Source: Bauldia sp. (GTDB lineage Bacteria; Pseudomonadota; Alphaproteobacteria; Rhizobiales; Kaistiaceae). From it: DNA of 64,000 nucleotides. The number at the start of each line of letters is the position of its first letter. The first letter of the stretch is position 1. The notes under the pieces were generated by a model. That model saw only the letters and a program-made list of their open reading frames with translations. It was not told the origin of the DNA and made no database searches. The DNA lies in NCBI GenBank assembly GCA_026126025.1, contig JAHCJZ010000001.1, positions 248,001-312,000 on the forward strand, given 5' to 3'. Below, in pieces: positions 47,867-51,725 of this stretch. The translations under genes and the position numbers were made by a program.

Positions 47867-49747
47867 CTAGCCGGCGCCGTCCGCCGCCTCGTATTCCGCG
47901 CTGAGCGCGAGCCAGGCCTCCTCGGCCTGGGCGAGCTGGCGCCCGGCGTCCGCCTTCGCGCGGGCGTGCCCGGCGGCCGCAGCGGGGTCGCGCGTGTACA
48001 GGGCGGGATCGGCGAGCAGCGCATCGAGCCGCTGAATCTCTTTCTCAAGGCGCGCCATCAAGGACTGGGAATCCTTGATCTTCTTGCGCATCGGCGCCAG
48101 CGCCTCGCGGCGTTGCGCCGCCTCGCGCCGTCGCTCGCCGGCGTTCGGCTTCGCGGCGTCGTCGCCGCGGCCGCGGGCGCCGCCGCGATCGTCGAGGACG
48201 CGCCGGCGGTAGTCGTCGAGGTCGCCGTCGAACGGGCGGACGGTGCCGTCCGCCACCAGCCACAGCCGGTCGACGGTCGCCTCCAGGAGGTGGCGGTCAT
48301 GGCTGATGATGATGACGGCGCCGGCATAGTCGTTGAGGGCGCGGATCAGCGCCTCGCGGCTGTCGATGTCGAGATGGTTGGTCGGCTCGTCGAGAATGAG
48401 GAGGTTCGGCGCGCCGAAGGCGGCGAGCCCGAGGAGGAGGCGCGCCTTCTCGCCGCCGGAGAGCTCGCGCGTCGGCGTGTCCATCTTCGCGCCGGGAAAG
48501 CCGAGCGCGCCGGTGCGCGCCCGCACCCGCGCCGGCAGCTCGCCCGGCATCAGACGGCGGACATGGTCGGCCGCCGAGCCGTCGGGATCGAGCTCGTCCA
48601 GCTGGTGCTGCGCGAAATAGCCGACGGAAAGGCGCGGCGAGCCGCGCATCTCGCCCGCCATCGGCTTGAGGCGGCCGGAGATCAGCTTGGCGAAGGTCGA
48701 TTTGCCGTTGCCGTTCTGGCCAAGGAGCCCGACCCGGTCGTCGACGTCGAGCCGGAGGTCGAGCTGCGACAGCACCGCCCGTTCGCCATAGCCGACCGCG
48801 ACGTGATCGAGCGCGACCAGCGGCGGGGCGGCGGGCTTGGCCGGATCAGGGAAGCTGAAGCCGTAGACATGCTCGTCGACCAGCTCGGCGATCGGCTCCA
48901 TCCGCTCCAGCATCTTGAGGCGCGACTGGGCCTGCCGCGCCTTGGTCGCCTTCGCCCGGAAGCGGTCGACGAAGGCCTGCATGTGGGCGCGCGCCGCTTC
49001 CTGCTTGACCCGCGCCTTCGCCTGCAGCGCCTGCCGCTCGCGGCGCTGGCGGTCGAACTGCGTGTAGCCGCCGCGATAGGGAACGAGCTTGCCGTCGTCG
49101 ATATGGACGATCATCTCGACCGCCGCGTCGAGGAGGTCGCGGTCATGCGAGACCACGATCACGGTGTGGCGGTAGCGCGCGAGGAAGGCGTGAAGCCACA
49201 GCGTGCCCTCGAGGTCGAGATAATTGGTCGGCTCGTCGAGGAGGAGAAGGTCCGGCTCGGCGAAAAGCACCGCCGCGAGCGCGACCCGCATCCGCCAGCC
49301 CCCCGACAGCGCCGAGCACGGGCCGCGCTGCGTTGCGGCATCGAAGCCGAGGCCGGAGAGGATCGCGCCGGCGCGGGCTTCGGCCGAATGCGCGCCGATG
49401 TCGACCAGCCGCGTCTGGATCTCGGCGATGCGGTGCGGGTCGGTTTCGGTCGCGGCGGCCGCAAGGAGCGCCGCCCGCTCGCGGTCGCCCGCCATCACCA
49501 CCTCCAGCAGCGTCTCCGGACCGGACGGTGCCTCCTGCGCGACCTGGCCGATCCGCGCGCCGCGCGGCATCGCGATGTCGCCGCTCTCCGGCGCGAGCTC
49601 GCCGGTGATCAGCTTGAGCAGCGTCGTTTTCCCCGCGCCGTTGCGGCCGACGAGGCCGGCGCGGGTGCCCGCGGGCAGGCTGACGCTGGCGCCGGAGAGG
49701 AGGACCCGGTCGCCGATGCGGTAGGTGAGGTTGCCGATCTGCAGCAT
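47867..49747 (-). CDS. ABC-F family ATPase (translation factor / Uup-like)
   Basis: A 626-residue protein with two ABC ATPase domains and no membrane segment. First domain: Walker A GRNGAGKTTLLK, signature LSGGWRMRVALA. Linker: charged helices around residues 230-320 (RVKQEAARAHMQAFVDRFRAKATKARQAQS), the P-site tRNA interaction motif. Second domain: GQNGNGKSTFAK and LSGGEKARLLLGL, followed by DEPTNHLDID. A basic coiled-coil tail (about residues 540-626) matches the Uup or YheS branch. Such proteins act on stalled ribosomes. The ATG at 49747 is chosen; the longer frame is not homologous. Confidence 0.93.
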   Translation of the reverse strand: MLQIGNLTYRIGDRVLLSGASVSLPAGTRAGLVGRNGAGKTTLLKLITGELAPESGDIAMPRGARIGQVAQEAPSGPETLLEVVMAGDRERAALLAAAATETDPHRIAEIQTRLVDIGAHSAEARAGAILSGLGFDAATQRGPCSALSGGWRMRVALAAVLFAEPDLLLLDEPTNYLDLEGTLWLHAFLARYRHTVIVVSHDRDLLDAAVEMIVHIDDGKLVPYRGGYTQFDRQRRERQALQAKARVKQEAARAHMQAFVDRFRAKATKARQAQSRLKMLERMEPIAELVDEHVYGFSFPDPAKPAAPPLVALDHVAVGYGERAVLSQLDLRLDVDDRVGLLGQNGNGKSTFAKLISGRLKPMAGEMRGSPRLSVGYFAQHQLDELDPDGSAADHVRRLMPGELPARVRARTGALGFPGAKMDTPTRELSGGEKARLLLGLAAFGAPNLLILDEPTNHLDIDSREALIRALNDYAGAVIIISHDRHLLEATVDRLWLVADGTVRPFDGDLDDYRRRVLDDRGGARGRGDDAAKPNAGERRREAAQRREALAPMRKKIKDSQSLMARLEKEIQRLDALLADPALYTRDPAAAAGHARAKADAGRQLAQAEEAWLALSAEYEAADGAG

Positions 49748-49845: not shown

Positions 49846-50235
49846 ATGTCTTCGAATGGTGAAGTATTGCGGCGCTACGGCGCCGCGTCCGAGGTCGACG
49901 ACTTCGCGACGATGGGTGCTTTGAAGCACCCCGACTGGCAGCTGGAGCTGCCGCAGTCGGGCGAGGTTTTCGTCGGCCACGACAATTACGTGGCGATGCG
50001 CACCAGCCGCCCCGAGGGGCTGCCCCGGCTCAAGGGCCTGAGGATGGACGGCGAGGGCGACCATTGGTGGGGCGAGGACATCATCACCTATGGCGACGGC
50101 TCGCGCTGGCTGGTGGTGAGCATCGTCACCTTCAAGGGCGGCCTGATCTGGCGCGAGCGGAGCTACTTCATGCAGCCCTTCCCCGCGCAGCCCGCCCGCG
50201 CGCAATGGGTCACGCGCGTCGAACCGGCGCTGTAG
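49846..50235 (+). CDS. SnoaL/NTF2-like small protein
   Basis: A 129-residue soluble protein. It begins with MSSNGEVLRRYGAASEVDDFATMGALKHPDWQLEL, resembling the first helix and strand of the NTF2-like fold, then a GHDNYVAMR stretch, WWGEDIITYGDG, and IWRERSYFMQPF, which fit the SnoaL_2 pattern (pocket lined with Trp/Tyr/Arg). No signal peptide. The family includes ketosteroid-isomerase-like enzymes and stress proteins. Function here is not deducible. It sits divergently from the ABC-F gene with 98 bases between starts. Confidence 0.78.
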   Translation: MSSNGEVLRRYGAASEVDDFATMGALKHPDWQLELPQSGEVFVGHDNYVAMRTSRPEGLPRLKGLRMDGEGDHWWGEDIITYGDGSRWLVVSIVTFKGGLIWRERSYFMQPFPAQPARAQWVTRVEPAL

Positions 50236-50280
50236 CCGCACACCACCGACGTCATCGAGGCAGAAGCCTGGACTTCCTCC

Positions 50281-50383
50281 GACCTCGTCCTGAGGTGCCG
50301 CCGTAGGCGGCCTCGAAGGACGGCAGGAGCGCACCAGCGGGTCCTTCGAGGCCCGGCTTCGCCGGGCGCCTCAGGATGAGGTC
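50281..50383. repeat. Palindromic repeat element, family A, copy 4
   Basis: Outer arms GACCTCGTCCTGAGGTGC and GCGCCTCAGGATGAGGTC, inner arms GGCCTCGAAGGAC and GTCCTTCGAGGCC. Same family as the elements at 10369, 22233 and 23491, each lying between genes. The 431-base gap before rsgA contains this copy followed by a promoter and leader. Confidence 0.8.
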
Positions 50384-50418
50384 GGCTGCGTGGTGGAGGC
50401 ACAGGACACGGGTGCGGC

Positions 50419-50447
50419 TTGAGCAGTGGGTCTCACGGGTCTACATA
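50419..50447 (+). promoter_or_regulatory. Sigma-70-type promoter upstream of the rsgA leader
   Basis: TTGAGC (50419-50424) and TACATA (50442-50447) are separated by exactly 17 bases, a strong match to a housekeeping promoter. Transcription would start near 50454, giving a leader of about 210 bases before rsgA. The site lies just after the palindromic repeat. Confidence 0.55.
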
Positions 50448-50483
50448 GCCGTTGTCACCACCACCGGACCGGGGAGGGTATTC

Positions 50484-50528
50484 ATGACAGCCATTGTCGC
50501 CCGTCCGGTCGGTTGTCCGGCCCGCTAG
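50484..50528 (+). CDS. Candidate 14-codon leader ORF ahead of rsgA
   Basis: ATG at 50484 with GGGGAGGG at 50471-50478 (5-base gap), encoding MTAIVARPVGCPAR and stopping at TAG (50526). It lies 30 bases after the predicted transcription start and 138 bases before the rsgA ATG. Its Shine-Dalgarno sequence is stronger than that of rsgA itself, which is consistent with a translated leader peptide controlling the downstream gene. The function is inferred and the ORF may be chance. Confidence 0.4.
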   Translation: MTAIVARPVGCPAR

Positions 50529-50563
50529 CGCAAGCTTCGTCCCGCAGGGACATCCAGCGCCAG

Positions 50564-50658
50564 CACCATCCGGGCAATCCGGCCGCGCATCGCGCCGACC
50601 CATGTCGGCCCGAACGCGCGTCTGCGTGACCCGCGCCCATCGGCGCTCCTGGATGGTG
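50564..50658 (+). promoter_or_regulatory. Possible long-range pairing that covers the rsgA ribosome-binding region
   Basis: CACCATCC at 50564-50571 is exactly complementary to GGATGGTG at 50651-50658, which ends 8 bases before the rsgA ATG. Pairing would hide the place where a Shine-Dalgarno should be. A second pair, AGCGCC at 50556 with GGCGCT at 50642, cannot form together with the first in a nested way, so two alternative folds are possible, as in attenuators. Confidence 0.3.
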
Positions 50659-50666
50659 ATCCTCCA

Positions 50667-51725
50667 ATGTCTTCCGATTTCCGCGGGCTGGCCGCCTATG
50701 GCTGGTCCCCGCATTTCCATGCCCGGCTCGATGAAACCGAGCTGGCGGACTTCGTTCCCGCCCGCGTCGTGGCGGTCCATCGCGGTGCGATCGACGTCGA
50801 AGGCCCGGCCTTCACCGGCCGCGTGCCGCAGCTCGACGCCGACGATCCGCTCGATCGCGCCACCGTCGGCGATTTCGTGCTGCTCGACCGCAGCGGACGA
50901 TCGCGCCGCGTCCTCGAACGGAAGAGCCTCTTCAAGCGCCGCGCCGCCGGGACCGGCCGCGAGCTCCAGCTCGTCGCCGCCAATGTCGATACGCTGCTGA
51001 TCGTCACCTCGTGCAATCACGACTTCAACCTGGCGCGGTTGGAGCGCTACCTCGTGCTCGCGCGCGAGGCGGGCGTCACGCCGCTGATCGTGCTGACCAA
51101 GGCCGATCTCGCCGACGATCCGGACGAGCTTGCGGCGAAGGCCCGCAAGCTCGCGCCGGGTCTCCTCGTCGAGCCGCTCGACGCGCGCGACCCGGCCGAG
51201 GTCGACCGGCTCCGCTTCTGGTGCGGACCGGGCGAGACCGTGGCGCTGCTCGGCTCGTCCGGCGTCGGCAAGTCGACGCTGGTCAACACGCTCCTCGCCG
51301 CGGAGGCGCAGGCGACCGGCGGCATCCGCGAGGGCGATTCGCACGGCCGGCACACCACCACCGGCCGGTCGCTGCTGCGGCTTCCCGCCGGCGGCTGGCT
51401 TCTCGACACGCCGGGCATGCGCGAGCTCCAGCTCACCGATGTCGGCGACGGCATCGACCAGGTGTTCGACGATGTCGTCCGGCTGGCGGCGCGATGCCGC
51501 TTCGCCGACTGCCGCCACGAGACCGAGCCCGGCTGTGCGGTGCAAGCCGCGATCGCGGCCGGCGACCTCGAACCGGGGCGGCTCAAGCGCTACCGCAAGC
51601 TCGAAGCCGAAGACCGGCGCAACACCGAGACGCTCGCCGAATCCCGCGCCCGCTTCCGGCGCTTCGGCCGCCTGACCCGCAGCGCGCTGCAGGACAAGCG
51701 GCTGCGGAGCGGCCGCGACCCGTGA
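50667..51725 (+). CDS. rsgA: Ribosome biogenesis GTPase RsgA
   Basis: Late 30S assembly GTPase; circularly permuted. The 352-residue protein has an OB-fold domain (residues about 30-110), then G4 (LTKADLAD) before the P-loop GSSGVGKSTLVN (residues 196-207), and the G3 DTPGMRELQ. The C-terminal zinc-binding segment uses Cys-His-Cys spacing (RCRFADCRHETEPGCAV). The order G4-G1-G3 is the family's diagnostic permutation. It is convergent with the DinB-family gene. Confidence 0.95.
   Translation: MSSDFRGLAAYGWSPHFHARLDETELADFVPARVVAVHRGAIDVEGPAFTGRVPQLDADDPLDRATVGDFVLLDRSGRSRRVLERKSLFKRRAAGTGRELQLVAANVDTLLIVTSCNHDFNLARLERYLVLAREAGVTPLIVLTKADLADDPDELAAKARKLAPGLLVEPLDARDPAEVDRLRFWCGPGETVALLGSSGVGKSTLVNTLLAAEAQATGGIREGDSHGRHTTTGRSLLRLPAGGWLLDTPGMRELQLTDVGDGIDQVFDDVVRLAARCRFADCRHETEPGCAVQAAIAAGDLEPGRLKRYRKLEAEDRRNTETLAESRARFRRFGRLTRSALQDKRLRSGRDP

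Follow-up and report, generated by a model that had tools for sequence, protein, structure and literature searches.

A short-ORF leader with mutually exclusive helices ahead of rsgA homologues in Pseudomonadota, a candidate translational attenuator

Ribosomes on a short open reading frame (ORF) upstream of rsgA probably decide whether RsgA is made. We analyzed a 64,000-nt stretch of a Bauldia sp. genome (hereafter, the window), in which rsgA is preceded by a leader that carries a 14-codon ORF with its own Shine-Dalgarno (SD) sequence and two mutually exclusive RNA helices. Comparison of homologous loci supports the ORF, its SD, both helices and their covariation, and indicates that such leaders are common to many rsgA homologues of Alphaproteobacteria and to some in other Pseudomonadota. 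We consider it fairly likely that the leader is a translational attenuator controlled by its upstream ORF (uORF), in which the ribosome's position on the ORF selects between two RNA folds. How ribosome-assembly factors are matched to the state of the ribosome is, in our judgement, little understood. If the proposal is true, the mRNA of a 30S-maturation GTPase would carry a cis-acting sensor, and a ribosome-assembly gene would join the targets of leader-ORF attenuators, which are mostly resistance and biosynthesis genes.

The leader and its gene in the window

The elements of the locus are listed in Table 1. No gene other than rsgA matched TIGR00157 at E ≤ 1e-20 in the 3.2-Mb genome that contains the window, and the encoded RsgA is 64% identical to its nearest named homologue, from a Bauldia metagenome assembly. 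RsgA acts in late 30S maturation, at helix 44 and the decoding centre (PMC9032327), and its loss leads to 17S rRNA and poor subunit association (PMC3669203). The leader stretch is flanked by rsgA and by a gene for an NTF2-like protein (SnoaL_2, slightly under the Pfam cut-off).

An earlier note on this DNA had described an SD, a short ORF and pairing elements, and all of them are present at the coordinates given in Table 1. Its "good promoter" did not hold up: the site agrees with the sigma-70 consensus at 7 of 12 positions by our count, and a promoter scan returned 0 sites. In the leaders of 75 relatives, promoter-like sites (at least 8/12) peaked with the end of the -10 element 31–36 nt before the ORF, with 13 sites in this 6-nt bin and at most 6 in any other. 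The -10 element of the window ends 36 nt before the ORF, inside this peak bin, and the site itself lies below the 8/12 threshold. The pattern RTGWCNGCCATTGTV occurred once in the window genome and 16 times in 28 genomes of the family (reversed control, 0), and only the seven matches preceding rsgA were SD-led short ORFs.

No terminator-like site was found in 50235–50760 of the window, and the intrinsic terminator of a trp-type transcription attenuator is accordingly lacking between leader ORF and rsgA at this locus. The window leader resembles trpL/peTrpL of Sinorhizobium meliloti in its 14-residue leader peptide and its alphaproteobacterial host, whereas the latter is described as a leaderless ORF in a transcription attenuator (PMC10117765).

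Table 1. Elements of the rsgA locus in the window
Feature	Position	Strand	Basis or remark
ABC-F gene	47870..49747	-	divergent, upstream of rsgA; best NCBIfam match PRK10636, below cut-off
REP-like dispersed palindromic repeat	50300..50396		immediately upstream of the promoter-like site
Promoter-like site, TTGAGC-N17-TACATA	50419..50447	+	TTGAGC 50419-50424, TACATA 50442-50447; weak by consensus
SD of the short ORF, GGGAGG	50472..50477	+	sequence; SD-led ORFs recur in relatives
Short ORF (uORF), 14 codons, MTAIVARPVGCPAR	50484..50528	+	SD-led 10-20-codon ORFs recurrent in relatives
Segment 1, codons 10-13 of uORF, GGTTGTCCGG	50511..50520	+	can pair with CCGGGCAATC, 50570-50579; 1:2 covariation in relatives
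AGCGCC / GGCGCT	50556..50561 / 50642..50647		present in the window
CACCATCC / GGATGGTG	50564..50571 / 50651..50658		extendable to an 11-bp helix, 50564-50574 / 50648-50658
Segment 2	50564..50579	+	50564-50574 can pair with segment 3, 50570-50579 with segment 1
Segment 3, rsgA ribosome-binding region	50648..50658	+	can pair with 50564-50574
rsgA, 30S-maturation GTPase, 352 aa, regulated gene	50667..51725	+	Pfam RsgA_GTPase E 3.2e-48; TIGR00157 136.9 bits, cut-off 100

Recurrence ahead of rsgA homologues

A blastn search of the leader against 60 relatives gave short matches elsewhere only and none to rsgA leaders, which suggested an unconserved leader; this was overturned by the upstream regions of rsgA homologues. 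Such homologues were found in 15 of 28 genomes of the family (TIGR00157), 50 of 249 in the order (E ≤ 1e-30), 37 of 385 in the class (1e-60) and 96 of 398 in the phylum (1e-50), only part of the last (24 loci and 40 loci) being used. A mechanical scan covered the 164 loci that have 200 nt or more of upstream sequence. These formed 81 clusters, and one genome, G141, was counted twice, as L110 and L147. Upstream sequence was shorter than 200 nt at L132 and L199, and the rsgA start of L206 was placed one base off.

An SD-led ATG or GTG ORF of 10–20 codons was present at 67 of the 164 loci, against 7.4 ± 2.6 expected from dinucleotide shuffles. The counts by RsgA identity were 27 of 41 loci at 55% or more (1.2 expected), 22 of 64 at 48–55% (3.7 expected) and 18 of 59 at 30–48% (2.5 expected). 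Conservation of an SD-led short ORF upstream of the regulated gene, a mark of leader attenuators on which the earlier note had made its proposal depend, was thus found. Chance, in the form of an unconserved ORF with accidental inverted repeats, would suit the blastn result and the whole-leader fold of the window, which is modestly better than shuffled sequences (z -2.1; 7 of 200 shuffles as good). It is contradicted by the excess of short ORFs, by the covariation and by the shared segment 2 reported below, and we regard it as highly improbable.

From the mechanical lists we picked 75 leaders by eye, with ORFs of 10–19 codons that start with ATG (64), GTG (8) or TTG (3). L086, which has a stop in the rsgA frame and 7 nt between its ORF and the start, was excluded; L092, the ORF of which was cut off in the first scan, and L157 are also outside this set. 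The peptides encoded ahead of rsgA include MTAIVCRRAGELVRGLSR (L043) and MSAIVPTGLVAQG (L048, same genus), VIVVVSHKAGESRTEA (L081, GTG-started), MSVMTVFRANCG (L101), MIVVSQKLAALV (L116) and MIVRVSHRGTAAA (L070, Chachezhania sediminis). Gammaproteobacterial cases were found in Photobacterium sp. DA100 (MIVFRTHSAKNVKTAR) and Pseudoalteromonas sp. NC201 (MIVLLSHPVKVVARCD). These two were the only short-ORF leaders of this class among 12 plasmid-collection records, of which Leisingera carries another class, described below, and the remaining nine showed no convincing short-ORF leader. Within the family of the window, the leader was absent from 5 of the 15 genomes with rsgA, all of one genus.

Mutually exclusive helices

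Three RNA segments recurred in these leaders: segment 1 within the ORF (about codons 8–12), segment 2 after the ORF, and segment 3, which is the rsgA ribosome-binding site (RBS). The pairings 1:2 and 2:3 exclude each other. In the window, the 2:3 pairing was better than shuffled sequences (p 0.04), and none of the RBS segments swapped in from other leaders paired as well with the window linker (swap p 0.00). The earlier note had proposed AGCGCC/GGCGCT as the competing pair; this pair exists, but the competitor that relatives conserve is the 1:2 pairing with a segment inside the ORF, which the note had overlooked and which reached a shuffle p of 0.18 in the window.

The arms of the 2:3 helix vary widely among relatives, from CACCATCCGGG/CCTGGATGGTG in the window to TCTCGACCAG/CTGGTCGAGA (L043), TCTCGATC/GATCGAGA (L045), TCTTGCCT/AGGCAAGA (L101), CTGCCTGA/TCAGGCAG (L134), GTTCACCAGC/GCTGGTGAAC (L122) and TCCAGCA/TGCTGGA (L116). 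We counted covariation in a structure-blind MAFFT alignment (A1) of 32 of the 75 leaders, chosen by us, with stem columns chosen by viewing the alignment. For the 2:3 stem, 63.4% of cells were paired, compared with 58.4 in shuffled and 27–42 in slid controls, and 23 cells had changes on both sides, compared with 13.6 in shuffles; neither value was reached in any of 500 shuffles, and further pair types were ordinary in number (332 of 500). For the 1:2 stem the corresponding values were 74.8% paired cells (68.7 shuffled, 28–48 slid) and 25 both-side changes (13.2 shuffled), again with 0 of 500 shuffles reaching either. Kinship alone can lift sequences above shuffles without any structure, and the slid controls retain kinship. 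The 5′ arm of the window row is misaligned, so the window contributes little to these counts.

The compensatory stem changes that the earlier note had looked to for support are thus found in relatives, in both stems. In a second alignment (A2, 12 of the 75 leaders, also chosen by us), 88% and 90% of cells were paired, and double changes were few (5 and 4 cells). RNAalifold returned no consensus pairs for the 32-leader alignment and recovered the 2:3 stem from the 12-leader alignment. Segment 2 was also placed from each side separately: between the ORF and the rsgA site, the best helix from the one and the best helix from the other shared 4 nt or more in 25 of the 75 leaders, against 6.4 ± 2.3 with shuffled ORFs, or in 12.2 of 44 against 3.8 ± 1.8 when counted by cluster. 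The arrangement expected of an attenuator, mutually exclusive helices one of which hides the RBS of the main gene, is therefore supported by covariation, weaker on 12 leaders, together with the shared segment 2.

Taken individually, the helices were less prominent. Gap-free helices were adopted for the 2:3 and 1:2 tests after Duplexfold, with free internal loops, had given little 2:3 signal (median z -0.5, with 19% of the 75 leaders reaching p ≤ 0.05). Against shuffles, the 2:3 helix alone reached p ≤ 0.05 in 24 of the 75 leaders; by cluster it did so in 7 of 44, with a median p of 0.31. For the 1:2 helix alone, the number was 13 of the 75 leaders. The helix signal is spread through the family and is not strong in each member.

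We also considered pairing between the ORF start and the rsgA start, which appeared with 15–22 predicted pairs in 24 of 75 minimum-energy folds (e.g., L072, L078, L081 and L124). As a general feature it was rejected, not being significant over the 75 leaders against swapped or shuffled partners; a swap p ≤ 0.05 was obtained in 7 of 75 leaders, with 2 of 75 and 1 of 74 in controls.

Predicted effect of a ribosome on the leader

We slid a 30-nt block in silico along the 75 leaders in 21 positions and recalculated how costly it would be to open the rsgA site. With the block at -6..+23 of the ORF, the predicted opening cost changed by a mean of -1.9 kcal/mol (40 leaders down, 11 up by >0.5), and at +18..+47 by +0.6 (41 up, 14 down). 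The cost also fell with blocks placed immediately before the ORF (-0.6 to -0.7) or beyond +54 (-0.5 to -1.0), so the opening is partly unspecific; closing on average was seen only with blocks over segment 1. By cluster, the effects of the start block and the segment-1 block had p values of 0.0009 and 0.03, these being one pair among the 21 positions viewed. An earlier version with ribosome-like footprints agreed, with means of -1.7 at the ORF start and +0.6 at the ORF end.

For the window, the predicted probabilities P(1:2)/P(2:3) were 0.72/0.08 in the free leader, 0.79/0.00 with a ribosome at the AUG, 0.12/0.66 at codon 5 and 0.00/0.79 at the stop. A helix flip is therefore predicted by the model, without full specificity, as control blocks also raised P(2:3), to 0.42 (50530–50555) and 0.55 (50580–50610). 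The corresponding opening costs were 8.6 (free), 9.6 (AUG), 8.8 (codon 5) and 10.5 kcal/mol (stop), and for the window the model does not predict the opening by an early ribosome that the average over relatives shows.

Modest fold energies and the weak opening-cost effect in the window, together with the 2:3 stem across leaders, would be consistent with a fixed hairpin that lowers rsgA translation, the short ORF only recruiting ribosomes or protecting the mRNA and no switching taking place. Such a hairpin needs neither covariation of the 1:2 stem nor a common landing site for both helices, and the observation of both makes it unlikely in our view.

Isoleucine codons and the leader peptide

Isoleucine within codons 2–5 of the short ORF was encoded by ATT in 52 of 57 cases (75 leaders). 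At loci above 60% GC, ATT accounted for 31 of 33 of these isoleucine codons and for 28 of 212 in rsgA itself (p about 1e-20, kinship unweighted). Neither the peptide nor the tested pairings account for this preference across the whole set. The motif [ILV][VA] in codons 2–5 was picked after viewing the peptides, and its count of 52 versus 0.5 is therefore no independent test.

The wealth of isoleucine and valine in codons 2–5, and the prevalence of ATT there, could reflect an attenuator in which starvation for either amino acid stalls ribosomes in these codons and alters the fold. Each leader has merely one to four such codons, however, and some have none (MTQSHTFPVRAH, L164), while rsgA has no known link to branched-chain amino acids. 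One tRNA decodes both ATT and ATC, so the preference between them argues for a cause in the RNA or in decoding and not in starvation, and the starvation explanation appears very doubtful. Arrest of the ribosome by the nascent peptide is similarly improbable. Hydrophobic residues do recur in codons 2–5, as does AG or RA near codons 8–10, but the C-termini differ, the segment-1 codons are explained by RNA pairing, and the changed codons of 14 close leader pairs (22 non-synonymous and 16 synonymous) indicate weak selection on the peptide.

Proposed switch and its trigger

In the attenuator that we favour, a free 3′ half of the ORF would let segment 1 pair with segment 2, sparing the rsgA RBS, and a ribosome on this half would free segment 2 to pair with segment 3 and close the site. 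Some relatives may have a further closed state, in which the first codons of an ORF free of ribosomes are paired to the rsgA start; in these, rsgA would be on mainly while ribosomes sit at the ORF beginning. The signal may come from ribosomes detained around the ORF start, either through immature 30S subunits, the substrate of RsgA, or through initiation-stalling drugs. The earlier note had proposed that the translation state of the leader decides whether rsgA is translated. The exclusive, covarying helices and the in silico blocking profile fit this proposal, with the amendment that ribosome position on the ORF, not mere translation, seems to matter. Feedback from subunits that bind the SD without moving on would be sensible, and we infer that cells use the switch, the ribosome-dependent flip of which is predicted in silico.

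Attenuators of the ermC and cat types likewise combine a leader ORF with helices that exclude each other and mask or uncover the downstream gene's RBS. Their targets are resistance genes, and ribosomes are arrested by a drug at defined codons of the leader. When a ribosome stalls in ermC, a 2:3 helix forms and the RBS becomes accessible, whereas in the rsgA leader the RBS is part of the 2:3 helix.

The nearest described system that we found is toiL/topAI of E. coli, in which a short SD-led ORF also lies ahead of the regulated gene; the sequence of this uORF pairs with the RBS that follows it, and a ribosome held at the uORF start is proposed to free this site (PMC12121999, which also mentions ermB and ermC). 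It differs in its genes (topAI-yjhQP, Rho-linked) and in that a stall at any point of the uORF has been proposed to cause induction (PMC12121999), whereas the rsgA leader carries a further segment downstream of its ORF, which would add a closed state with a ribosome near the ORF end. A search of the open-access literature yielded no leader ORF or such leader for rsgA among the best matches listed, and the main texts of the uORF4u paper (PMC10219788) and of a Sinorhizobium ribosome-profiling paper (PMC10117765) do not mention rsgA. At the curated scores, Rfam gave 0 matches in the window and, in 19 relatives, a tRNA in L135 only.

The main rival keeps the same switch and assigns its trigger to a ribosome-targeting drug, RsgA being made in a translation-stress response rather than in feedback on 30S maturation. 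The drug induction of toiL/topAI, in which tetracycline has been proposed to trap ribosomes at the start of the uORF (PMC12121999), points this way, as does Streptomyces coelicolor, where an RsgA/EngC paralogue pair is named among the genes that WblC controls and that have paralogues (PMC7157823). A divergent ABC-F gene upstream of rsgA, found in 6 of 91 loci examined, all in the family of the window (the window, L043, L044, L045, L046 and L048), is also in its favour. The known role of RsgA is 30S maturation, however, and the single TIGR00157 gene in the genome makes a purely stress-specific role less natural; we consider a drug trigger possible without expecting it.

A second leader class

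Another leader class was found at 15 loci and in Leisingera sp. S132, ahead of rsgA homologues with an N-terminal extension of the MxRDYSxF type. It consists of an SD, an ORF of 2–3 codons (ATG TCC CGG TAA and variants, encoding MSR, MPR, MSW or MS) and a GGGGAGG/CCTCCC hairpin, in this order. In an alignment of 16 sequences (A3; L139:2548-2747, L240:963-1158 and 14 further loci), the AUG and GGAG columns were invariant, and RNAalifold predicted 24 pairs, 10 of them with double changes. Five loci scanned gave no Rfam match. In both classes an rsgA homologue is preceded by a very short ORF with its own SD and by RNA that pairs, but the second differs in the length of its ORF, in its helices and in the extension, and its arrangement is not similar.

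Two unrelated very-short-ORF leaders in one gene family would make ribosome sensing more plausible for both. More tentatively still than the drug trigger, we suggest a widespread homeostatic loop, in which rsgA would be on while immature or blocked 30S subunits linger at the ORF start and off when ribosomes reach the end, with the two leader classes (10–19-codon and 2–3-codon ORFs) having arisen for the same gene family.

Surroundings of rsgA

The gene itself is patchy in the family of the window, 13 of 28 genomes lacking a TIGR00157 match at E ≤ 1e-20. On plasmids, the rsgA genes of Rhizobium leguminosarum pRLN4 (L238) and Ensifer canadensis pT173c (L241) are without the short-ORF leader and are closely preceded by a small annotated hypothetical protein gene. 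In Lysinibacillus fusiformis plasmid pMGMM7 (L249), no such leader ORF was recognised, and the fosfomycin-resistance gene fosM directly follows the rsgA homologue.

In the window, the NTF2-like gene and the palindromic repeat separate the ABC-F gene from rsgA. The repeat took 71 of the 72 genome matches of a query spanning 50300–50700. A gene for an ABC ATP-binding protein is also divergent to rsgA in Sphingomonas paeninsulae.
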